NCBI RefSeq assembly: GCF_000447755.1
Contig: NZ_AUNE01000050.1
Coordinates: 1 to 64,000, forward strand
Direction: 5' to 3'
DNA length: 64,000 bases
From: Bacteriovorax sp. BSW11_IV
GTDB taxonomy: Bacteria > Bdellovibrionota > Bacteriovoracia > Bacteriovoracales > Bacteriovoracaceae
The translations under genes and the position numbers were made by a program. Position 1 is the stretch's first letter; each line of letters opens with the position of its first letter. The notes beneath the pieces were generated by a model that searched no databases, was not told the DNA's origin, and saw only the letters and a list, made by a program, of their open reading frames with translations. Positions 19,421 to 41,006 of the stretch are shown here, piece after piece.

Positions 19421-20229
19421 CAGTGGGGGCAGTAATATGTCCCCCTCGTTGCTAACACAATCTTTTTCACTTCCGTTTTCTGGCACATGCGACACGTCTT
19501 CTGATAAAAAACCACAAGATTTTTCACCCCTTCACCCTTGTCGCCATAAGCGTCTTGATAGCCCCCAGAGAAAGTTGTGCCACCAGTTTTAATCGTATCA
19601 TCAAGAACAAGCTTTGTGGCCTTAATGACATTTTCTAGATCGGCCTTTGTCAGTGTTTTCATTTTGCGCGTTGGACGAAGGCCCGCACGCGCACAAATTT
19701 CACTGGCCATATAATTACCAATACCCGCAAAGAAATTTTGTTCCAACAAAAACGGCTTCAATACTTTTTCAGGACGAATCTTTTTCAAGTGCAAAAGATA
19801 ATCCACATTGAAATCATCACTACTTACATCAGGCCCAAGGCGTGTGAGCCACTTCGCTTCATTCTCAAGATTAAAAAAGTGCATATTCCCAAATCGTCTT
19901 GGATCAATGTAGCCGAAGTACACGATCTCGTTATCGTGCTTGCCTTTAATGAGAACATGGGTGTGCTTTTCTGTGATCTTTGTTTTTGAGATTCGCCACG
20001 AGCCTGACATACCAAGGCCCGAGATAATGCGCTTATCGTTTTTTAAAAAGAAGCGCAGCACTTTTCCTTGGCGAGAAATCTTCTCGATTACATCGCCCTT
20101 TGTGAGTGCGTAGTCTTTGTCTTTTACAACGCCATCAGAGACGTCGGAGTATGTGACGGAGTCTACTTCCAGAGGGAGGTAGGGGGTGAGTTGGGATTTT
20201 ATTGTTTCGACTTCGGGTAGTTCGGGCAT
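19411..20229 (-). CDS. mutM: Formamidopyrimidine-DNA glycosylase
   Basis: A 272-residue DNA repair glycosylase/AP lyase that removes oxidised purines such as 8-oxoguanine. It has the catalytic N-terminus PELPEVE (Pro2, Glu3), the Lys57 region (RQGKVL), the H2TH region (QNFFAGIGNYMASEIC..AGL) and the zinc finger CRMCQK...CPHCQK at the C-terminus. Length is normal. Its first six codons and leader (20213-20314) recur perfectly at 32882-32983, though this copy of the gene is intact. Confidence 0.96.
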   Translation of the reverse strand: MPELPEVETIKSQLTPYLPLEVDSVTYSDVSDGVVKDKDYALTKGDVIEKISRQGKVLRFFLKNDKRIISGLGMSGSWRISKTKITEKHTHVLIKGKHDNEIVYFGYIDPRRFGNMHFFNLENEAKWLTRLGPDVSSDDFNVDYLLHLKKIRPEKVLKPFLLEQNFFAGIGNYMASEICARAGLRPTRKMKTLTKADLENVIKATKLVLDDTIKTGGTTFSGGYQDAYGDKGEGVKNLVVFYQKTCRMCQKTEVKKIVLATRGTYYCPHCQK

Positions 20230-20314
20230 ATTAAGAAATCTTTTGTTTTGGTTGTGAGGTTGATTATAGCAGAGGTTTTGGGGATTGGGAGGGGGAGGTT
20301 AAGAAAACTTGATT
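20213..20314. repeat. mutM leader repeat, copy 1 (102 bp, perfect)
   Basis: Covers the first 17 bases of mutM and 85 bp upstream. It is identical over 102 bp to 32882-32983 and about 75% identical in its distal part to 35681-35753. Copies 1 and 2 bracket a 12.6-kb accessory segment, as target duplications or attachment sites would. Confidence 0.95.
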
Positions 20315-20377
20315 CAAGATAATATAAACTTTAAACCGATAATTTATTTTATTAATTATTGAAATATTTGGAGATGT

Positions 20378-21496
20378 ATGCATTCCCCTAATTACAAAAA
20401 AGTTTATGTGCTAGGCGCCGGTTTTTCGATAGAGGCAGGAGCTCCAAATCAATATGATTTAATTAAAAATATATTTGAACTGAATGACTCTAGTCCTAAC
20501 CTTTTTGATAGAGAAGTATTTGAGCGGTTTAAAAAGTTTTTATCTGAAGATCTTTTTATTTCAGAAGAGCATTTTGGTGAAGTCGAGTTGGAAGATATTT
20601 TTACTCCACTTGATAGATGTATTGCAGAGAACACTTCATTCAGAGGGTTGTCTTTTGATGAAATGAAAAGAGCTCGAAGTGACGTTTATTATCTGATTGC
20701 AAAAATGTTAGATGAAAAACTAAGAGATATTGATTCAAGTTATATTGATAAGTTTGCGAAACATCTAGTTTTTGAATCTAAAAAACGTAGCAATAATAGA
20801 TATAAAATGATTGACCCGGTTAGTGTTGTAAGTATGAATTGGGACATTATGTTAGATAATTATATTAAAAAAAACATTGATTTGGATGAATCTACAATTA
20901 AAGGAGTTGTTGATTACTGTTGTCATGTTAGTTCATTTAATAAATATGATAATACGATCAAGCCTGGATTAGAAATTTTAGGAGCAGGTGGGTATAATGT
21001 AAAATTATTAAAAATACATGGTTCATTAAATTGGTTAGCCTGCCCAAGATGTTATCGAAATTATGTTGGCTTTAATGAAAAAATAGGCCTTTATCAATTT
21101 ATGAATCAGCAGGAATGCAGACACTGTAAAGAAAACTTTAAAAAAGATAGAAAATCAAGCCATTTGAATTCAAGCTTAGTCATGCCTACATTTATAAAAG
21201 ATTTAGATTCCCCGCAATACAAACAAATTTGGCAAAATTCTGCAGTCGAATTATCTGAAGCCTCAGAGGTCATTTTTATTGGTTATTCTTTACCTAGTGC
21301 TGATTTTGAATTTAGGCAATTGCTTAGTCGTATGGTGCGTAAGAATGCAAAGATTACTGTTGTGGATTTTTCTAGTGAATCAGATAAGCAAAATATTCCT
21401 GTGTTCAAAAGATATAAAAGGTTTTTTGGGAAAAGAGAAATTATTTTCCATTGGAATGGTACAAAGAGTTATGTTGAAAAATATATTGAAGATTAA
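20378..21496 (+). CDS. SIR2-like NAD+-binding protein, putative defence effector
   Basis: A 372-residue SIR2_2-type protein. NAD-binding motifs: VLGAGFSIEAGAP (residues 11-23), MNWDIMLDNY (about 151) and KIHGSLNW with the conserved His (about 213). A CPRC...CRHC zinc-ribbon insertion follows (about 221-249), and FIGYSLPSADFEFR (about 300) is the final sirtuin strand region. Stand-alone SIR2 proteins of this kind often act as NAD+-depleting effectors in phage defence. That is family knowledge plus inference here. The gene is AT-rich and is the first module after the mutM leader, followed 40 bp on by attC-like repeat A. Confidence 0.85.
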   Translation: MHSPNYKKVYVLGAGFSIEAGAPNQYDLIKNIFELNDSSPNLFDREVFERFKKFLSEDLFISEEHFGEVELEDIFTPLDRCIAENTSFRGLSFDEMKRARSDVYYLIAKMLDEKLRDIDSSYIDKFAKHLVFESKKRSNNRYKMIDPVSVVSMNWDIMLDNYIKKNIDLDESTIKGVVDYCCHVSSFNKYDNTIKPGLEILGAGGYNVKLLKIHGSLNWLACPRCYRNYVGFNEKIGLYQFMNQQECRHCKENFKKDRKSSHLNSSLVMPTFIKDLDSPQYKQIWQNSAVELSEASEVIFIGYSLPSADFEFRQLLSRMVRKNAKITVVDFSSESDKQNIPVFKRYKRFFGKREIIFHWNGTKSYVEKYIED

Positions 21497-22615: not shown

Positions 22616-22682
22616 GGTTCCAACATCTTATTACGTAAGCAGCGCATTTAATTCAGTGCTTACGTAAAAGTTTGCTGGAACC
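22616..22682 (+). repeat. attC-like palindromic repeat B
   Basis: Nearly complete copy. The outer arms are GGTTCCAACA and GCTGGAACC; the inner arms TTACGTAAGC and GCTTACGTAA are perfect. Unpaired bases lie between outer and inner arms. It follows the HEPN-like gene. Confidence 0.9.
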
Positions 22683-22778
22683 TTCTTATTGATAAATCCG
22701 ATCTGGATTTCTTCCGGTTCCATTTGAGATTTAAGCAAATGCATTGATTTTAAATGTGAAAATCCTTTTTTAATGATC

Positions 22779-22809
22779 TTGACCTTAAAGTTAACTTTAA
22801 TTGTAGAGT
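22779..22809 (+). promoter_or_regulatory. MerR-type promoter/operator 1
   Basis: -35 TTGACC, a 19-bp spacer holding the dyad CTTAAAG-TTAA-CTTTAAT, and a -10-like TAGAGT. The long spacer with a dyad inside is typical of MerR-activated promoters. It matches the promoter at 24025 and the CTTAAAG-N4-CTTTAAG site reported for Bacillus AdhR. Confidence 0.8.
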
Positions 22810-22873
22810 TAACTTGTATTGAATTTTTATGAGGATTTTTCCTCAAGAATAAATCGAAACAAAGGAGTTAGGT

Positions 22874-23938
22874 ATGAGTAAAGTAAATCTGAAAAATAGA
22901 AAAATTGCCAAAATATTTTTAGGGGTAGTAATTATTGTTATTACTTTAGCATTTTTTCCAAGCTTCTTGTTGAATGATGCATTATTAAATAGTTCTACCG
23001 GCACTTTAAATGAACATTTTGAAAAAGAAAGTACTAGTAATATTTTTACGGAAATCAAAATGGGTGATCTTCAAGTTCCAATTATTAAGGACGGAATTTA
23101 TGATAAGTATCGCTCAAATCCACCTCTTTCATTTGTAAAAGAACAAAAACCTAATTTAGATTTAAGTTGGTTCATTACTTTAGAAAAAGAACGAAAGGAT
23201 GTTGGATTTGTTACTTACTCACCTAATTTCTACTATAGCAATAGTAGTATTACTGCAATTTATACTGCTGATATGGATACAATCAGCAAACTTATTCCAA
23301 GTTCAGTAAAAGAGATTGTTAAACCAATCTCATTTTCACCCGGCATAGGATTAATTGCTATAACTTCCTATGCTTATCATTATTGTGATAATGGTTCATA
23401 TAATGAGCTTTCAATTTCAATAGTAACAACAACTCCAAGAGCAAAAAACTTTGGACTCATCTCACTAGTTGGAGAACTTAATAATAAGAGTCTTTGGGGA
23501 TACGTATTGAAGCTTCCTGTTGATACTGAGCTAGCTAGAGTTCGTGGTGTTCTTGGATATAATTTACCTAAATGGCTAATCCCAATAAAGTATGAGCTTG
23601 ATAACAATAATATGAGCTTTTCTTACTATAATGAGGAAGGAATCTTTGATTTCTCTATGGTTGGTAAAAGGTTAGATGTCAAAAAATCTGAAACATCCAT
23701 TTCTCGCTTAAATTTTATAAACGTAGATATACAAGGAAGATTAACTCATGGTTACAGTGATGTTAGGGCCATAAAGAAAGCAAGTAGTACTAGCGGTGAA
23801 GACATCCAGTTAAATTTGTCAAATGGTCCGATTTCAAAATTTATCAAGTCGTTAAAAATAAAGAAATTAGTGCGCTATGATTATCAACCTGAGTTTCAGG
23901 CAGCACTGTACACACCAAATTTTTTAACAAATGAATAG
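22874..23938 (+). CDS. Membrane-anchored acetoacetate decarboxylase-like protein
   Basis: A 354-residue protein with one N-terminal membrane helix (about residues 13-33). The rest resembles the acetoacetate decarboxylase-like fold: an ELSISIVTTTP strand pair and the LPVDTELARVRGVLGYNLPKWL segment correspond to the family's core. The lysine of true decarboxylases could not be placed confidently, so the activity is open. Its promoter carries the same MerR-type dyad as the downstream electrophile operon, so it is probably coregulated. Confidence 0.5.
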   Translation: MSKVNLKNRKIAKIFLGVVIIVITLAFFPSFLLNDALLNSSTGTLNEHFEKESTSNIFTEIKMGDLQVPIIKDGIYDKYRSNPPLSFVKEQKPNLDLSWFITLEKERKDVGFVTYSPNFYYSNSSITAIYTADMDTISKLIPSSVKEIVKPISFSPGIGLIAITSYAYHYCDNGSYNELSISIVTTTPRAKNFGLISLVGELNNKSLWGYVLKLPVDTELARVRGVLGYNLPKWLIPIKYELDNNNMSFSYYNEEGIFDFSMVGKRLDVKKSETSISRLNFINVDIQGRLTHGYSDVRAIKKASSTSGEDIQLNLSNGPISKFIKSLKIKKLVRYDYQPEFQAALYTPNFLTNE

Positions 23939-24024
23939 AGGTTTTTTTTAAATAATTAGCTAAGGTCCAATGCGTGTGTGCCTAAGCGTATGAAAATATT
24001 AATGAATGGTGAATGCATTAGACG

Positions 24025-24055
24025 TTGACCTTAAAGTTAACTTTAAGTGTATAGT
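24025..24055 (+). promoter_or_regulatory. MerR-type promoter/operator 2
   Basis: -35 TTGACC, a 19-bp spacer with the perfect dyad CTTAAAG-TTAA-CTTTAAG (24030-24047), and -10 TATAGT. It drives the OYE-PfpI-ALDH-MerR operon. The site is what AdhR/NmlR-type regulators recognise, and such a regulator is the last gene of the operon. Confidence 0.88.
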
Positions 24056-24087
24056 AGGGTTAGATTTAATAAACAAAAGGTGAAAAA

Positions 24088-25323
24088 ATGAAGTTATTTG
24101 AAAATTTAATATTACCAAATGGAAGCATAATCCCAAACCGTATTGGAAAGGCCGCAATGGAAGAGAATCTTGCCGATTCTAACCACCTACCAGCAGATGA
24201 GTTGTTCAAGCTTTATGATTCATGGGCAAAAGGTGGAGCTGGTTTAATCATCACTGGAAATGTCATGATTGATAGAAGAGCGATGACCGGTCCTGCTGGA
24301 GTGGTATTAGAAGATGATAAATATTTAGATAGTTTTAAGAAGTGGGCAGAAATTATAAAATCAAATGGTGCTCAGGCTTGGATGCAAATCAATCATCCTG
24401 GGCGTCAGATGCCAGTAAATATGGGACAACCAACAATTGCTCCATCAGCAATCTCAATTCAATTAGGAGCGGCTTCAAAGGCATTTGGAGTACCAAGAGA
24501 AATGACCATAGAAGAAATTGAAGAGGTTATTGAGCGCTTTGTTAATACAGCAACACTTGCAGAAAAAGCAGGGTTCACAGGAGTTGAAATACATGCAGCA
24601 CATGGTTATCTCATTAGTCAGTTTCTTTCTCCTTTAACAAATAAGCGAACGGATCAATGGGGAGGAAGCGCTGAGAATCGTTCTAGATTTTTATTTGAAG
24701 TAGTAGAGCGTGTAAGATCAAAAGTTTCAAAAAGTTTTGCAGTTGCTGTTAAATTAAATTCCGCAGACTTTCAGCGTGGAGGATTTAGTCCTGAAGATGC
24801 TAAAGAGGTTGTTAAAAAATTAAATGACCTAGAAGTTGATTTAGTAGAAGTCTCGGGGGGAAGTTATGAGGCTCCTGCAATGATGGGAAAAGCTAGAGAT
24901 GAAAGGTCACTTGCGAGAGAGGCCTATTTCCTAGAGTTCGCTAAAGAAATCGCAGCTGTCGCCAAAATGCCTATAATGGTTACAGGTGGTGTGAGAAGAA
25001 AAGAAGTCGCTGAAAATGTTGTAAGCTCTGGTGTTGATGTAGTTGGAATTGCAACTGCTTTAGCAATAAATCCATCGATTCCGAATGATTGGAAATTAGG
25101 CAATTCAAAAGATAATACGCCCTCATTAAGGCCTATCACATGGAGCAATAAAGCATTAGCTTCAATGGCGAACATGGCAATGGTTAAGTACCAATTCAAT
25201 AGAATGATAAAAGGGAAAAAAACAGTTCCAAATATTTCACCGCTGAAAGCATTTATAATAGATAGAATGAATGCTTACAGAAATACAAAATTATACAAAA
25301 AGTGGCTTGTTCAAAAAAACTAG
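24088..25323 (+). CDS. Old yellow enzyme-type NADH:flavin oxidoreductase
   Basis: A 411-residue FMN-dependent ene-reductase of the OYE family. Seen: the barrel start LILPNGSIIPNRIGKAAM, the substrate-binding MQINHPGRQ (His near residue 112), and HAAHGYLISQFLSPLTNKRTD with the flavin/substrate residues. The VEVSGGSYEAP and VTGGVR segments bind FMN phosphate. OYEs reduce activated alkenes such as quinones and unsaturated aldehydes. It is the first gene after the MerR-type promoter at 24025, consistent with electrophile detoxification. It lacks the iron-sulphur extension of 2,4-dienoyl-CoA reductases. Confidence 0.93.
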   Translation: MKLFENLILPNGSIIPNRIGKAAMEENLADSNHLPADELFKLYDSWAKGGAGLIITGNVMIDRRAMTGPAGVVLEDDKYLDSFKKWAEIIKSNGAQAWMQINHPGRQMPVNMGQPTIAPSAISIQLGAASKAFGVPREMTIEEIEEVIERFVNTATLAEKAGFTGVEIHAAHGYLISQFLSPLTNKRTDQWGGSAENRSRFLFEVVERVRSKVSKSFAVAVKLNSADFQRGGFSPEDAKEVVKKLNDLEVDLVEVSGGSYEAPAMMGKARDERSLAREAYFLEFAKEIAAVAKMPIMVTGGVRRKEVAENVVSSGVDVVGIATALAINPSIPNDWKLGNSKDNTPSLRPITWSNKALASMANMAMVKYQFNRMIKGKKTVPNISPLKAFIIDRMNAYRNTKLYKKWLVQKN

Positions 25324-25341
25324 TTCGTTAAAGGATCTTAT

Positions 25342-26145
25342 ATGATCAATTTATTTAAGAAATTATTTGTTTTACAATTAGTTCTTATCACAATGAGTGC
25401 ATGTGCAAGTACTAAGGAAACTAATATGAAACTTAAGTTAGCCGAATCGAAAAAAATATTAATTATAGTCACTAATCATGAGGACTACCCAAATCGTGAG
25501 GATAAAACAGGGCTATGGCTAACGGAGTTGACTCATTTCTATGATGAAGTAAAAGAAGCTGGATTTGAAGTTGATATTGCAAGCCCAAATGGAGGTAAGT
25601 CTCCTTTAGATGAAAGAAGTCTTGGGTGGATGTACATAGATAAAGAGGCAAAAAAACATTTAAAGAATCCTGAGTTTACGAGATTACTAGATGAAACTTT
25701 AGATGTTTCAAAATTAAATGGAGATGATTACATCGCAATTTATTTTGCTGGTGGACATGGGACGATGTGGGATTTCAAGGATAATCCTGACTTGAAGCTC
25801 ATATCTGAGCAAATATATAATAATGAAGGCTATGTAACATCGGTTTGTCATGGTGCCGCAGGGCTTTTAAACCTACAGGCACCTAGTGGAAAACCACTAA
25901 TTGAGAATAAAAAAATAACTGGTTTTTCTAATACAGAAGAATGGCTAGCTGGACTTACATACACAGTACCATTTTCTCTTGAAGATGAGCTGAAGGCTTT
26001 AAACCCTATATATAAAAAGGCCCTATTCCCTTTTGTTTCATACGCAGTTTCAGATGGAAGAATAGTAACTGGTCAAAACCCTAATTCGGGGAAGGCAGTA
26101 GCTAAAGAGCTTTTACGACTTATGAGAATTAAAGAAAGTCATTGA
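25342..26145 (+). CDS. DJ-1/PfpI family lipoprotein, Hsp31/glyoxalase III-like
   Basis: A 267-residue DJ-1/PfpI protein with an N-terminal lipoprotein-type signal (TMSAC near residue 20). The catalytic elbow VTSVCHGAAGLLNL (Cys near residue 172) and the YFAGGHGTMWDF segment match the Hsp31/YraA branch, which includes glyoxalase III and chaperone activities. The acidic residue of the TGLWLTEL segment is the usual partner of the cysteine. In Bacillus, AdhR controls a PfpI-type gene (yraA), matching the operon here. The lipoprotein signal is unusual for the family and suggests periplasmic action. Confidence 0.9.
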   Translation: MINLFKKLFVLQLVLITMSACASTKETNMKLKLAESKKILIIVTNHEDYPNREDKTGLWLTELTHFYDEVKEAGFEVDIASPNGGKSPLDERSLGWMYIDKEAKKHLKNPEFTRLLDETLDVSKLNGDDYIAIYFAGGHGTMWDFKDNPDLKLISEQIYNNEGYVTSVCHGAAGLLNLQAPSGKPLIENKKITGFSNTEEWLAGLTYTVPFSLEDELKALNPIYKKALFPFVSYAVSDGRIVTGQNPNSGKAVAKELLRLMRIKESH

Positions 26146-26153
26146 GGTAATGT

Positions 26154-27527
26154 ATGGAAGGAGTCAAAGAAATTGTTGAAAAACAAAGAGAATTTGCAGA
26201 TAAAGGTGATTCAAAAAATGTTTCATTCAGAATTCAACTGCTTTTAAAGCTTAAGAAAGTATTAAAAGAAAATGAGCAAGAATTGAATGAAGCAATATAT
26301 AAAGATGTAAAAAAATCTGCATTTGAAACTTATCTAACAGAGTTATCTGTTGTGTATCATGAAATTGATTTTGCCGTTAAGAATTTAAAAAAATGGGCCA
26401 AGCCAGTTAGAGTTAAGACTGGAATCGCCAATTTTCCTGCAAGTAGTAAAATTATTCATGAACCACTTGGAACGACATTAATTATTGGAGCTTGGAATTA
26501 CCCTTATCAGCTTGTTTTAAACCCTGCCGTTGCAGCTCTTGCCGCTGGTAATGCCGCTATTTTGAAGCCTAGTGAATTACCAAGTACAACATCAAATGTC
26601 TTAGAAAAAATAATAAATCAAAACTTCGACTCGTCCTACTTACATGTGATGAAAGGAAGTGTTGAACTTACGACAGAACTACTGAAATATTCATATGGCA
26701 AGATTTGTTTCACTGGAAGCACACAAGTAGGAAAAATTATTGCTACGGCGGCAGCTCAAACATTGACCCCAACACTCCTAGAGCTAGGTGGAAAAAGTCC
26801 TTGCTTTGTTTTTCCTGATACAAATTTGAAGTTAGCGGCCAAAAGAATTGCTTGGGGTAAATTTATCAACTCTGGTCAAACATGTATTGCTCCAGATTAT
26901 CTATATGTCCACGATAGTGTTTATAATGAATTTCTTGAAGAACTTAAAATACAAACTCAATTAGTAGTTGGTCCCACCCCTAAAGAAAGTGAAAGTTTTA
27001 TTCGGATTATAAATAACAAAAACTTCAATCGTCTTAAAAATTTAATTGATCCTGCTAAGATTTTTTATGGCGGGGATTTAGATGAAAAAGAAAGTTATAT
27101 TTCACCAACAATTCTTAAGGATGTAAATTGGGGTGATGTATGTATGCAAGAAGAAATCTTTGGGCCTATTTTACCAGTTTTGAAGTTCTCTGAAATAGAC
27201 AATGCTATTAATGAAGTAAAAAGAGGACCTAGGCCATTAGCATTATATCTCTTTACAAGTGATAAACGAATTCAAGATAAAATTTTAAATGAAGTTTCAT
27301 TTGGAGGTGGTGCGATAAACGATGTTGTTATGCACTTTACAAATAACTATCTCCCTTTTGGAGGGGTTGGACAGAGTGGTATGGGAAATTATCACGGGAA
27401 ACATGGTTTTTTGTCATTTAGTCATCAAAAGTCCATCTTAAAAAAGCAGTTATGGTTCGAACCAAGTATAAAATACGCTCCATACACAAGTTGGAAACTA
27501 AAGTTTTCGAAGTTGATATTTGGATAA
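26154..27527 (+). CDS. Aldehyde dehydrogenase, class 3-like
   Basis: A 457-residue aldehyde dehydrogenase of the ALDH3 type: short N-terminus, IIGAWNYPYQL (cofactor region, near residue 105), LLELGGKSP (catalytic Glu), GQTCIAPDY (nucleophilic Cys near residue 242) and EEIFGPILPV. The C-terminus PFGGVGQSGMGNYHGKHGF is characteristic of class 3. It oxidises medium or aromatic aldehydes. It is the third gene of the electrophile operon, 8 bp after the PfpI gene, with a GAGGT site before the ATG. Confidence 0.93.
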   Translation: MEGVKEIVEKQREFADKGDSKNVSFRIQLLLKLKKVLKENEQELNEAIYKDVKKSAFETYLTELSVVYHEIDFAVKNLKKWAKPVRVKTGIANFPASSKIIHEPLGTTLIIGAWNYPYQLVLNPAVAALAAGNAAILKPSELPSTTSNVLEKIINQNFDSSYLHVMKGSVELTTELLKYSYGKICFTGSTQVGKIIATAAAQTLTPTLLELGGKSPCFVFPDTNLKLAAKRIAWGKFINSGQTCIAPDYLYVHDSVYNEFLEELKIQTQLVVGPTPKESESFIRIINNKNFNRLKNLIDPAKIFYGGDLDEKESYISPTILKDVNWGDVCMQEEIFGPILPVLKFSEIDNAINEVKRGPRPLALYLFTSDKRIQDKILNEVSFGGGAINDVVMHFTNNYLPFGGVGQSGMGNYHGKHGFLSFSHQKSILKKQLWFEPSIKYAPYTSWKLKFSKLIFG

Positions 27528-27540
27528 CAAAGGAATAGAT

Positions 27541-27936
27541 ATGAAGATAGGTGAACTAGCAAGCAAGTGTGAATTAGCACCTTCTGCTATTAGATATTAT
27601 GAATCGAGAGGTTTATTAAAATCAGTTACTCGTAAATCAAATGGTTATAGAATTTATACTGAAGATGCCGTGATTCTTTTGAAAGTCATTGTTAATGCAA
27701 AGCAAGCAGGTTTTTCGTTAGATGAAATTAAGCAAATACTTCCTGCTGATGCTTCGAACTGGGAACATGACAAACTGGTTAAGGTTATTAATGTGAAGAT
27801 AAAAGACATTGAGAACTTACAAGCTCAATTAAGGAAGAATAAGTCAAAATTGAAAGAAGTTCTAAGGGCAATTGAAAGTAAACCAAGTGACATGGCCTGC
27901 AAAGATAATGCAAAAAAGGTTTTAGGAAAAATTTAA
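27541..27936 (+). CDS. MerR-family regulator, AdhR/NmlR-like
   Basis: A 131-residue MerR regulator. The N-terminal winged helix (MKIGELASKCELAPSAIRYYE, then SNGYRIYTED) is followed by a dimerisation helix with leucine/lysine periodicity (about 80-115). Cysteines are at about residues 10 and 121, either of which could be a sensor. It is last in the electrophile operon, and two promoters in the cluster contain the dyad recognised by AdhR-type proteins. Autoregulation plus control of the ADC-like gene is therefore likely. An AAAGGA ribosome site supports the ATG at 27541. Confidence 0.9.
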   Translation: MKIGELASKCELAPSAIRYYESRGLLKSVTRKSNGYRIYTEDAVILLKVIVNAKQAGFSLDEIKQILPADASNWEHDKLVKVINVKIKDIENLQAQLRKNKSKLKEVLRAIESKPSDMACKDNAKKVLGKI

Positions 27937-29883: not shown

Positions 29884-29926
29884 TTTTTTATAAAAAGCCA
29901 AATTTCTTTTCCACTTAGAGATACAA

Positions 29927-29992
29927 GTTCCAGCACTTTCTTACGTAAGCAGTGTATTTAATTCAACGCTTACGTAAAAGTCTGTTGGAATC
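29927..29992 (+). repeat. attC-like palindromic repeat C
   Basis: Outer arms GTTCCAGCA and TGTTGGAATC; perfect inner arms TTACGTAAGC and GCTTACGTAA. The RHS-like reading frame begins inside its right arm. Confidence 0.9.
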
Positions 29993-30037
29993 TTAACCTA
30001 TAGTAACATAGATGAATTTTATTACTATGTTGAATGC

Positions 30038-32881: not shown

Positions 32882-32983
32882 TCGGGTAGTTCGGGCATAT
32901 TAAGAAATCTTTTGTTTTGGTTGTGAGGTTGATTATAGCAGAGGTTTTGGGGATTGGGAGGGGGAGGTTAAGAAAACTTGATT
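32882..32983. repeat. mutM leader repeat, copy 2 (102 bp, perfect)
   Basis: Identical to 20213-20314, including the complement of the first mutM codons, but without the rest of mutM. It could carry the divergent promoter activity of the mutM leader towards the downstream ATPase gene. Confidence 0.95.
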
Positions 32984-33028
32984 AATAATTATGAATCAAT
33001 TATCCGAATAAAAGTTTGTAATGATTCA

Positions 33029-33094
33029 GTTTCAACAGCTTTCTAGTTGAGTAGTACATTTTATTCAGCGCTTACGTAAATGTATGTTAGAACC
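33029..33094 (+). repeat. attC-like palindromic repeat E
   Basis: Right half is good (TTCAGCGCTTACGTAAA, then TTAGAACC); the left inner arm has decayed (CTAGTTGAGTAG). It sits just before the ATPase gene. Confidence 0.75.
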
Positions 33095-33159
33095 TTTTTG
33101 ATTATTTCTTATTATTTGATTTTATTTATAGCTCACGAGTATGTCTTTGGGGAAATTTT

Positions 33160-34692: not shown

Positions 34693-34713
34693 ATTTTTTA
34701 AGTATTTATTTAA

Positions 34714-34779
34714 GTTCCATGAAATACTTATGTGAGTAGTGTGTTGAATTCAGCGCTTACGCAAAATTCTGTAGGAGCT
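34714..34779 (+). repeat. attC-like palindromic repeat F
   Basis: GTTCCATG...TCAGCGCTTACGCAAAA...GTAGGAGC. The right inner arm is good and the left inner arm has decayed. It starts 22 bp after the ATPase stop. Confidence 0.75.
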
Positions 34780-34872
34780 TTTTTGTTTTTTTACAAAGTA
34801 AATTTTGTTTTCAGTGTTCAGTGCTGGGCGAAAATATTACTATGAATGAAGTAGATTTATAAGGATTTTTTT

Positions 34873-35586: not shown

Positions 35587-35609
35587 ATGAAAAGAAAATC
35601 ACCAAATAA

Positions 35610-35675
35610 GCTCCAACACCTTTTTACGTAAGAAGTGCATTTCATTCAGCGCTTACGAAAAAAGGTGTTGGAACT
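35610..35675 (+). repeat. attC-like palindromic repeat G
   Basis: One of the most symmetric copies: CTCCAACACCTTTTTACGTAAG pairs with CTTACGAAAAAAGGTGTTGGAAC, quoted here by arms of the stem. It follows the DUF4145 gene by 24 bp. Confidence 0.9.
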
Positions 35676-35680
35676 TCTGT

Positions 35681-35753
35681 ATTTGTTTTAATTGTTCGGT
35701 TGATTATAATAGAGGATTTGAGAATTGGGCGAAAAGATTTAGAAAACTTGATT
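35681..35753. repeat. mutM leader repeat, copy 3 (diverged)
   Basis: About 75% identical to the upstream part of copies 1 and 2 (shared TTGATTATA, AGAGG.TTTG and AGAAAACTTGATT). It directly follows repeat G and precedes the gene at 35812. Confidence 0.8.
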
Positions 35754-36209: not shown

Positions 36210-36674
36210 ATGTATTCAGTTTTAGATATCGCAATTTACTTTTTAAATAGATCTATTGATGAAAAAAAATACTTAACTCCGATACAAGTTATGAAGCTTT
36301 GTTATTTTGCTCATGGATATAAACTAGCAATAGACAACCAACCACTTGTTGATGAGGTTGTCCAAGCTTGGAAGTACGGTCCTGTGTTCAAAGATCTTTA
36401 TCAAGTATTAAAAATTTATGGAAATCGAAGAATTACAAAACTTCCTGATGTGTTGAGTTATGGCGAAGAGATTGATGCTGATGATTCTGAAATTTTAGAT
36501 GCAGTTTATGAATCTCTATCAGATATGGATGGGATGGACATTTCTGATTTAACGCATGAGGAAGGCACTCCATGGAGTGTCGTTTGGGAGTCGGAAGGAA
36601 AGAATTCTCGTTATGCACTTATCGAGAATAGTTTGATCAAATCTTATTTCGAGAAGGTCCTTGGTGAGTCCTAG
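36210..36674 (+). CDS. Panacea (DUF4065/SocA-like) antitoxin-type protein
   Basis: A 154-residue protein with the Panacea/DUF4065 fold signature: LTPIQVMKLCYFAHGYKLA (residues 22-40), then QPLVDEVVQAWKYGPVFKDLYQ (44-65), and HEEGTPWSVVW near 123. Panacea proteins are versatile antitoxins that neutralise many unrelated toxins, including membrane-disrupting ones. It overlaps the start of the next gene, which encodes a two-helix membrane protein, so the pair is a good toxin-antitoxin candidate. Confidence 0.85.
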   Translation: MYSVLDIAIYFLNRSIDEKKYLTPIQVMKLCYFAHGYKLAIDNQPLVDEVVQAWKYGPVFKDLYQVLKIYGNRRITKLPDVLSYGEEIDADDSEILDAVYESLSDMDGMDISDLTHEEGTPWSVVWESEGKNSRYALIENSLIKSYFEKVLGES

Positions 36675-37056: not shown

Positions 37057-37076
37057 TTCTTATTGAATGAGATTAA

Positions 37077-37142
37077 GTTCCAACACCTTTTTACGTAAAC
37101 AGCGCATTTTATCAGTGCATACGTAAAAGTCTGTTGAAACCT
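37077..37142 (+). repeat. attC-like palindromic repeat H
   Basis: GTTCCAACACCTTTTTACGTAA on the left, ACGTAAAAGTCTGTTGAAAC on the right. The mismatch between CC and GA next to the outer arm leaves an unpaired spacer. It ends the Panacea module. Confidence 0.9.
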
Positions 37143-37194
37143 TAAGGTTAAAGGATAGGTGTTATTTTAAGTTGGGTTCAAGGGTCAGTATTAG

Positions 37195-38403: not shown

Positions 38404-38946
38404 ATGAGAGTAAATACGGAAAGACTTATTTTAAATTCTTTTAGGATTGAAGAAGCTAAACTCGTTGCAAAAATGGCCGGAGACGTTAGAGTTGTCGAAA
38501 TGACTGCTTCAATTCCTTATCCTTATGAGCCCCACATGGCAGTAGATTGGATAAAGGGCCATGATAAACAGAAAGAAGAGCATAATAATCATATTTTCGC
38601 TATTCGCTTAAAGGAATCTTTAGAGCTAATTGGTTGTATAAATATTGGCTTCAATGAGACGCATGATAGAGGCTATGTCGGCTACTGGGTAGGTTTTGAT
38701 TTTTGGGGAAAAGGCTATTGCACCGAAGCCTTGAAAGAGATTATCAAATACGGATTTTCTTTTGAGAACGTTAATAAAATATGGGCAGAGCATAAAACGA
38801 AAAACATCCCTAGCGGCAAGGTTATGGAAAAAGCGGGCATGACTCACGAAGGTATTATGAGAAAGCATTATAAGCAAAATGCTGGTGAATATTTGGATAT
38901 GTCTGTGAAGTCAATTCTTAGAAGTGAATTTGAGACCAAAGTATAA
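38404..38946 (+). CDS. GNAT N-acetyltransferase, RimJ/RimL type
   Basis: A 180-residue acetyltransferase of the RimJ/RimL-like group, which uses acetyl-CoA to acetylate protein N-termini, amino acids or drugs. Seen: TERLILNSFRIEEAK at the start, YVGYWVGFDFWGKGYCTEALKEIIKYGF (acetyl-CoA loop, about residues 97-124) and NIPSGKVMEKAGMTHEGIMRKHY. Length is normal. GNAT genes are common integron cassette cargo. The ribosome site is weak. Confidence 0.92.
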   Translation: MRVNTERLILNSFRIEEAKLVAKMAGDVRVVEMTASIPYPYEPHMAVDWIKGHDKQKEEHNNHIFAIRLKESLELIGCINIGFNETHDRGYVGYWVGFDFWGKGYCTEALKEIIKYGFSFENVNKIWAEHKTKNIPSGKVMEKAGMTHEGIMRKHYKQNAGEYLDMSVKSILRSEFETKV

Positions 38947-39446: not shown

Positions 39447-39878
39447 ATGAGTTATTCAAATGAAGACATTTTAAAAAGAATTTCAAATGCAAAGAAAAAT
39501 AAAAGTAAATTAACTCATGTGACAAATAAAGCATCTTTATCAGTTGAAGATAAAGTGAAGATGGGACTATGTAAGCACTTTGTTCAATTTTCTCTTGAAA
39601 AGAAAATGTTAGCAAAAAACTTGAGTGACTTAACGGGGATTCCCACAAGTCGTATTTCTGAAATTACTAATTATAAGATTAATAAATTTACTGTAGATCA
39701 GTTGCTGAAGTATCTCACCGTACTTGGGAAGCATTCTGCTAAAATCAGACAGTACCTCACATTAATTGAGCAGATTGTCGAAGTTCCAACACTTAAAGTT
39801 AATGAAACTAAAAAATTATCTCGTGAGATAAAAAGTTTTGTTGAAGCTGGGGCTAATTCAACTTTTCAATACGTATAA
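39447..39878 (+). CDS. XRE-type HTH protein, possible antitoxin
   Basis: A 143-residue protein with an XRE helix-turn-helix at about residues 58-85 (LAKNLSDLTGIPTSRISEIT; KFTVDQLLKYL). The N-terminus is lysine- and serine-rich. It starts 2 bp after the frameshifted ORF and shares TAATG with the serine hydrolase gene. HigA-like antitoxins look like this, and palindromes upstream (39085-39165) are probable binding sites. Confidence 0.7.
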   Translation: MSYSNEDILKRISNAKKNKSKLTHVTNKASLSVEDKVKMGLCKHFVQFSLEKKMLAKNLSDLTGIPTSRISEITNYKINKFTVDQLLKYLTVLGKHSAKIRQYLTLIEQIVEVPTLKVNETKKLSREIKSFVEAGANSTFQYV

Positions 39879-40930
39879 TGACAATAAATGACTTCGACAA
39901 AAAATTATCTGAAATAGTAAAAAAACACAAAATCCCTGCAATGTCTGTAATGATCATTGCAAATGATAAAGTCATCTTACACTCAGCAAAAGGTGTTAGA
40001 CGAATAGATAAGAGTGATCCCATTACTTCTCAAGACTCATTTCATTTAGGTTCATGTGCTAAGGCATTTACGGCCACTCTCATATTAAAGATGATGGATG
40101 AAGGAAAGCTCGACATTGAGGATTCCATCACAACATATATACCTGAGCTTGAGGCGAATAAATTTTCTGATATTAAAATTAAGCATCTCTTATCGCACTC
40201 TGCTGGAATCGTTTATGGCCTCGACGAAAGCGTTAGAGAAAAAATGTATTCTGATGATCTAACTCCCGCGCAAGGCAGAATACTTATGGTGAAGTATTTA
40301 AATCAAGTAGAGAGAATTGCTCCCGCAGGCGAAGTCTATGAGTATAGTAACGTTGGGTACACTCTATTAGGTCATATTATTGAAAATGTTGAACAAAAAC
40401 CTTTTGAAGACGCTATCACTGAAAAACTTTTCAAACCTTTTGGTATGACTTCTTGCTCGTTTGGACCAGCAGGAAAAGAAGGCAATTCTGCGACGGCATG
40501 GGGACATGATTTTGAAGACGGACAATACATTCCTAAAGACCCAAAAATTGTGTTCTCCGACAATCCAATGGCATATTCGCCAGCTGGTGTAATAAGCTGT
40601 ACTCAAGAAGACTGGGCAAAGTTCATATTATTCATTATGGGATATGGTGAAAATCGCAATTATCTAAGACCTCACATTCGAAAACTTATATTTACAGAAA
40701 ACCTTGACGACTATACTTACGGTGGCTGGGGGAAGAACTCTTGTAAATGGGCCGGCGCCTTTCTCGCACATTCTGGTTCAAATGGTTATAATTTCGCCTA
40801 CGCCATGGTGGGACTTGATAAGAGTTATGGCATGCTCATTAATTCAAATTGCTGCGAAGACAGTGCTGCAAATGATATTGCACAAGATGTTGTTGATTTC
40901 TACTTAGATTATGAAAAAAGTAACAATTAA
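39878..40930 (+). CDS. Serine hydrolase, beta-lactamase/PBP-like (class C fold)
   Basis: A 350-residue beta-lactamase-family protein without a signal peptide. The catalytic Ser-x-x-Lys is GSCAKAFTA (Ser near residue 60), the YxN motif is YEYSNVGY (near 153), and the HxG-type motif is AHSGSNGYN (near 307). Such proteins include esterases, D-amino peptidases and beta-lactamases. Lack of a signal argues against a periplasmic beta-lactamase. Repeat J begins at the base after its stop codon, the tight gene-attC spacing seen in cassettes. Confidence 0.9.
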   Translation: MTINDFDKKLSEIVKKHKIPAMSVMIIANDKVILHSAKGVRRIDKSDPITSQDSFHLGSCAKAFTATLILKMMDEGKLDIEDSITTYIPELEANKFSDIKIKHLLSHSAGIVYGLDESVREKMYSDDLTPAQGRILMVKYLNQVERIAPAGEVYEYSNVGYTLLGHIIENVEQKPFEDAITEKLFKPFGMTSCSFGPAGKEGNSATAWGHDFEDGQYIPKDPKIVFSDNPMAYSPAGVISCTQEDWAKFILFIMGYGENRNYLRPHIRKLIFTENLDDYTYGGWGKNSCKWAGAFLAHSGSNGYNFAYAMVGLDKSYGMLINSNCCEDSAANDIAQDVVDFYLDYEKSNN

Positions 40931-40967
40931 GTTCCAACATCTTTTTACGCAAAAGTCTGTTGGAACC
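40931..40967 (+). repeat. attC-like palindromic repeat J (short loop)
   Basis: A 37-bp version with GTTCCAACATC and GTCTGTTGGAACC outer parts and TTTTTACG/CGCAAAA joined directly; the central ~29 bp are deleted. It is the last copy and marks the right end of the accessory region. Confidence 0.85.
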
Positions 40968-41006
40968 TCTTTGATAAATAGATCAGTGACCTAGATCGAA
41001 ATATTC

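Follow-up and report, generated by a model that had tools for sequence, protein, structure and literature searches.

Gene content and promoters of the cluster

The window, by which we mean the whole 64,000-nt stretch of DNA analyzed, carries a cluster of five genes and two promoters on the forward strand, with attC-like repeats on either side.

22616-22695 (+): imperfect attC-like inverted repeat that directly precedes P1 (outside the regulon; given for context)
22779-22809 (+): promoter P1, with TTGACC, a 19-bp spacer holding the dyad CTTAAAGTTAACTTTAAT, and -10 box TAGAGT
22874-23938 (+): ADC-superfamily protein, with an N-terminal hydrophobic segment at about residues 13-34 and invariant Glu219, Arg224 and Lys233
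24025-24055 (+): promoter P2, with TTGACC, a 19-bp spacer holding the perfect palindrome CTTAAAGTTAACTTTAAG, and -10 box TATAGT
24088-25323 (+): Old Yellow Enzyme (OYE) family NADH:flavin oxidoreductase, 411 aa
25342-26145 (+): Hsp31/glyoxalase III-type DJ-1/PfpI protein, with an N-terminal signal, a lipobox-like MSAC and conserved Cys169-His170
26154-27527 (+): aldehyde dehydrogenase class 3 (ALDH3/fatty aldehyde dehydrogenase-like), with Cys244 and Glu210
27541-27936 (+): MerR-family regulator, 131 aa, of a subfamily with a single C-terminal cysteine (Cys120)
29926-30005 (+): next attC-like repeat, which bounds the segment between the two repeats on its downstream side (given for context)

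A sequence-only reading of this DNA had named an OYE, PfpI, ALDH and MerR set with an additional ADC-like membrane protein, and these identities are borne out by Pfam matches for the first four (OYE PF00724, E 4.5e-56; DJ-1/PfpI, 1e-9; ALDH, 2.5e-86; MerR, 3.4e-18) and by relatives and predicted fold for the fifth. The same reading had placed all five genes in one operon. The OYE, DJ-1/PfpI, ALDH and MerR genes, with intergenic gaps of 18, 8 and 13 bases, do form a four-gene operon, but the ADC gene stands alone behind its own promoter, giving two transcription units instead of one.

The promoter geometry described in that reading, with TTGACC, a 19-bp spacer containing a dyad and a -10 box at both 22779 and 24025, was confirmed. 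It is that of MerR-type promoters, which have a palindrome in a 19-20 bp spacer between the -35 and -10 boxes. The two dyads follow the pattern CTTAAAG-TTAA-CTTTAA(G/T). At P2 the dyad is a perfect 18-bp palindrome and an exact copy of CTTAAAG-N4-CTTTAAG, the reported AdhR operator; at P1 there is one mismatch to it, located at the palindrome end, and the -10 box is weak, weaker than that of P2. Within the window, three dyad matches with up to two mismatches were found against 0.79 expected. The combined promoter-dyad string has exactly two copies in the 3.65-Mb genome, both at P1 and P2, and none with one mismatch, and with up to three mismatches the genome-wide total of 37 is near that of the mirrored control (35).

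An operator conserved with the enzyme genes in Pseudomonadota

Scanning genome contigs with an OYE alignment returned 80 loci, all titled Pseudomonadota, to which eight plasmid loci were added. Of the 85 OYE genes that could be scored, 80 have the operator TTGACCTTNAAG-N4-CTTNAAG upstream. Like the counts that follow, this shows conservation rather than independent events, since OYE served as the query for collecting the loci and many of them are related. The operator also precedes the genes for ADC (42/50), DJ-1 (33/44) and an alpha/beta hydrolase (25/34), and none of the 22 scanned ALDH genes. Across the 1.41 Mb of these loci, 258 operator matches were found in comparison with 0-3 for shuffled or mirrored patterns, and the consensus of the 80 OYE promoters, with a TA(A/T)(A/G)GT-like -10 box behind a spacer of 19 bp, reproduces the geometry of P1 and P2. 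Twelve whole genomes searched with up to one mismatch yielded 27 sites in 11 of them, nearly all inside the OYE cluster, against none for the mirrored controls.

Operator and regulator tend to come and go together: both are present in 78 OYE loci and both absent in four, and four of the five OYE genes without the operator also lack the MerR gene. Loci L119, L123, L125 and L130 (Comamonadaceae and Burkholderiales bins, and Rhodoferax), which have neither, are related and fall together as a single clade when the OYEs are placed in a tree. The regulon enzyme set recurs in Acinetobacter, Pseudomonas, Burkholderia, Stenotrophomonas and others, and in plasmid records from Shinella, Roseateles, Paraburkholderia, Agrobacterium, Acinetobacter and Caballeronia the OYE, ADC, ALDH, DJ-1 and MerR genes adjoin in varying sets. 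What began as a guess from a single window is now a widespread regulon, in which one operator and one regulator subfamily, marked by its single invariant cysteine, go with a set of enzymes that recurs.

The same enzyme module is found next to other regulators in Streptomyces sp. WAC00288, where plasmid p2 (locus L215, 983-14020) carries OYE twice, ADC, alpha/beta hydrolase, DJ-1, ALDH and a saccharopine-dehydrogenase-like gene beside TetR genes. The homologues there are 54% (OYE), 30% (ADC), 28% (DJ-1), 42% (ALDH), 27% (saccharopine-dehydrogenase-like) and 45% (alpha/beta hydrolase) identical, and neither the MerR gene nor the operator was found at this plasmid locus. Because the set recurs beside TetR regulators, it is a functional module whatever regulator controls it.

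A MerR subfamily with one invariant C-terminal cysteine

Among 89 relatives of the window MerR protein, Cys120, which sits in the C-terminal loop region, is present in 88; the one that lacks it is a distant paralogue encoded outside the cluster. Conservation extends to Trp74 and Pro68, and His76 is found in 79 of the 89. We define here a distinct subfamily by Cys120, Trp74, Pro68 and a nearby TTGACCTTNAAG-N4-CTTNAAG operator, all of which the window protein has. A family profile search placed CueR best (7e-25) and NmlR HI_0186 much weaker (5e-11), and the best curated family-model match of the window protein is ZntR, below its cut-off. The pattern of the metal sensors, with a C-terminal cysteine pair and, in ZntR and CadR, a cysteine starting the dimer helix, was not found: Cys120 is single, there is no cysteine near positions 76-77, and most relatives have Asp, Gly or Glu at the position after His76, which aligns with CueR Ser77.

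In AdhR and NmlR, Cys52 and Cys54, respectively, are essential for the aldehyde response (PMC4776306). The corresponding position, assigned by alignment with an NmlR-like protein of Neisseria (N. gonorrhoeae), is Asn52 in the window regulator and is Cys in just 2 of the 89 relatives, and on the absence of this defining residue we reject AdhR/NmlR orthology. The NCBIfam NmlR model gives the window protein 38.8 bits against a cut-off of 175, a weak test, as the N. gonorrhoeae protein of that alignment scores below it too (82.7). The missing cysteine, together with a profile nearest to CueR, thus leaves an AdhR-like dyad with a regulator that is not AdhR, and the sequence-only label ‘AdhR-type’ holds for the DNA site but not for the protein.

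The enzymes and the ADC-fold protein

The window OYE is 61-69% identical to the regulon OYEs of Pseudomonadota, and the closest chains to the DJ-1 protein are 4p5p, 1u9c and yeast Hsp31, which assigns it to the Hsp31/glyoxalase III type. The window ALDH has only ~35% identity to the ALDHs of other loci. The OYE, ADC and DJ-1 sets have each kept residues of the catalytic type.

Taken alone, the ADC-like protein falls below the Pfam cut-off (E 0.034), while PF06314 is reached by 8 of 18 relatives. A PDB sequence-profile search with the ADC family gave no match, and it was the fold search that produced matches. The AlphaFold model (mean pLDDT 81, with residues 1-54 unreliable) was matched by Foldseek to solved structures of acetoacetate decarboxylase, MppR and aldolase-dehydratase with E-values from 3e-13 (3bh2) to 9e-10, so that the predicted structure has an ADC fold. 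Its Lys233, invariant in 48 of 48 sequences, is a candidate for the Schiff-base lysine of the superfamily.

Several ADC and DJ-1 members, in the window as well as in Acinetobacter and Pseudomonas, have hydrophobic N-termini resembling export signals. The two window proteins may therefore be exported, and some of the module's enzymes probably act outside the cytosol. Both the ADC-fold family, about which little is understood, and exported Hsp31-like enzymes gain a likely context from this regulon.

Origin of the cluster

Among the genomes sampled, the window cluster is the sole copy in its phylum. No OYE among 291 phylum genomes exceeds 52% identity to that of the window, the best ADC relative reaches ~31% over part of the protein, and the best MerR among 59 phylum relatives reaches 42%. 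Near-matches to the operator occur in 41 of 369 genomes of the phylum, slightly above the mirrored control; none of the 19 such loci examined has regulon genes, and all of their sites lie in a stop-free frame of at least 139 codons. With such low identities and with near-matches close to control and away from these genes, vertical inheritance within the phylum is not supported.

In the OYE tree, the window protein falls within the Pseudomonadota regulon clade (97% SH-aLRT), apart from the OYEs of its own phylum and without a named sister. The cluster was probably acquired horizontally from Pseudomonadota, as judged from these sequence comparisons, so that a bacterium which is Bdellovibrio-like by the kinship and gene content of its relatives would carry a proteobacterial stress operon. 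The phylogeny that had been proposed to trace the donor succeeded in placing the OYE, but the donor itself cannot be named because the window MerR and ADC proteins lie on long branches. A search for the empty site in a genome of the same genus found no synteny around the antiporter gene, and a search for phage carriage gave a sole match, the OYE gene in Acinetobacter phage records (67% DNA identity).

Repeats and genes around the cluster

Seven attC-like imperfect inverted repeats are located in the window (22616-22695, 29926-30005, 33028-33107, 34713-34792, 35609-35688, 37068-37151 and 40922-40977). These are nearly all the copies in the genome, with one further weak match on another contig (C23). 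Folding of the first repeat's bottom strand gives a z-score of -6.2, and the repeat-bearing stretch is A+T-rich (~29-39% G+C in comparison with ~40-43% upstream). An Rfam search gave no match, and no integron integrase scored above the family cut-off in the genome. The suggestion that the operon is cargo between attC-like sites agrees with hairpin repeats on both sides of it, but no integrase reached the cut-off, and a 7.2-kb segment with multiple promoters is not a typical cassette. Three more ORFs lie within the repeat pair that flanks the operon, so its capture as a single cassette is possible yet unproven.

Other features of the region include a 111-nt direct repeat at 20213-20323 and 32882-32992 (96% identical, 12.7 kb apart), with a weaker 48-nt third part at 35682-35729, and a SIR2-like protein at 20378-21496, possibly a defence gene by weak PADLOC matches (E 3e-8), which adjoins the repeat region. 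Between the repeats lie genes for a Panacea-domain antitoxin-like protein (36210-36674), a GNAT acetyltransferase (38404-38946) and a beta-lactamase-fold protein (39878-40930), the kind of cargo seen in cassette arrays.

Proposed function and alternatives

We consider it likely that the locus represents a MerR regulon, cis-acting and acquired horizontally, that removes reactive carbonyls and related electrophiles through a thiol switch at Cys120. A MerR dimer would sit on the palindrome in the spacers of P1 and P2, which at 19 bp are over-long, and, when unmodified, hold both promoters off. Modification of the Cys120 thiol in the C-terminal effector region by an electrophile would lead the protein to distort the spacer and activate P1 and P2, including the promoter of its own gene. 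OYE would then reduce activated C=C bonds or quinones, the class-3 ALDH would oxidise aldehydes, and the Hsp31-like DJ-1 lipoprotein and membrane-anchored ADC-fold protein would deal, outside the cytosol, with dicarbonyl or keto compounds, the products acting on both sides of the inner membrane. The earlier suggestion of a self-regulated MerR operon for electrophile or carbonyl detoxification is supported by the gene content, the promoter geometry, and the conservation of site and genes in about 80 loci. The nature of the inducer is deduced from the enzyme families, of which OYE, ALDH and DJ-1 also serve catabolism, and a single conserved cysteine could serve redox, nitrosative or metal sensing. 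Counting against this detoxification reading are the weak -10 box of P1 and the low identity of the window ALDH to the ALDHs of other loci, which are without the operator.

The double role of these enzyme families gives a catabolic alternative, in which they degrade a specific carbon source, such as a cyclic enone or an aromatic aldehyde, and MerR responds to the substrate or a metabolite. The enzyme set does stay together under unrelated regulators (MerR in Pseudomonadota, beside TetR in Streptomyces), and some loci adjoin ring-cleavage or hydrolase genes. Yet in the annotated loci neither a transporter nor a ring-cleavage gene recurs as a core member, an apparently exported Hsp31-like enzyme and OYE are typical of detoxification, and the conserved thiol fits an electrophile signal, so that we hold a catabolic operon to be unlikely. 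A metal or redox regulon, with a MerR of CueR-like ancestry sensing a soft metal or oxidant through Cys120, would account for the profile nearest to CueR/CadR, the sub-threshold ZntR match, the location of Cys120 in the C-terminal loop region, and the frequent His76. It is very unlikely in view of one C-terminal cysteine rather than a metal-ligand pair, of the Asp, Gly or Glu that mostly aligns with CueR Ser77, and of the annotated loci, in which no metal transporter or chaperone recurs. The dyad reported for AdhR, the DJ-1/PfpI gene found in both regulons and the MerR fold would all suit an AdhR/NmlR orthologue governing a formaldehyde/methylglyoxal regulon, as in Bacillus subtilis. Such orthology is highly improbable against Asn52 in place of the essential cysteine, an NmlR model score far under the cut-off with a family profile nearest to CueR, and an operon that has no formaldehyde dehydrogenase of the adhA/adhC type.

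Beyond the detoxification regulon itself, we offer more tentatively, as a possibility that we still rather doubt, that this protein belongs to a class of MerR thiol sensor not yet described. An ancestor resembling the metal sensors would have kept one cysteine in its C-terminal loop region and become an electrophile sensor, arriving at the operator of Gram-positive AdhR by convergence and controlling a carbonyl-detoxification module that is common to Pseudomonadota and Actinomycetota and acts partly outside the cytosol. If true, this would mean that a MerR protein can sense electrophiles through one thiol in the C-terminal loop region.

Comparison with known systems

In the open literature on this enzyme set with a MerR regulator, we found no description of the regulon or of the sensor subfamily. 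An electrophile-responsive regulator controls an OYE family enzyme in the NemR-NemA system of Escherichia coli, but NemR is a TetR repressor, in contrast to the MerR protein, operator and gene set of the window. CueR, ZntR and CadR, the nearest solved relatives of the window MerR family, are likewise short MerR proteins with a C-terminal thiol region, and differ from it in that the window protein has a single C-terminal cysteine, no cysteine at the inter-subunit ligand position and no accompanying metal genes.

The window promoters share their spacer dyad, CTTAAAG-N4-CTTTAAG, with the site reported for the AdhR (YraB) regulon. A MerR activator and a DJ-1/PfpI gene (YraA) are also common to the window and to this regulon of Bacillus subtilis and the NmlR family (PMC4776306). 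In contrast to it, the window regulator is without Cys52/54 and nearest to CueR, and its regulon has no AdhA-type dehydrogenase and adds OYE, the ADC-fold protein and ALDH3. The closest counterparts are the proteobacterial MerR-OYE-ADC-DJ-1-ALDH clusters, for example of Shinella, Acinetobacter and Caballeronia, which have the same regulator subfamily, operator and enzyme families; the window differs from them in gene order, in forming one compact cluster, in having an ALDH3 from a different branch and in lacking the alpha/beta hydrolase. The gene families and the regulation of carbonyl stress by MerR proteins are already known, and what appears to be new, judging from the open papers searched, is the sensor subfamily and its regulon.
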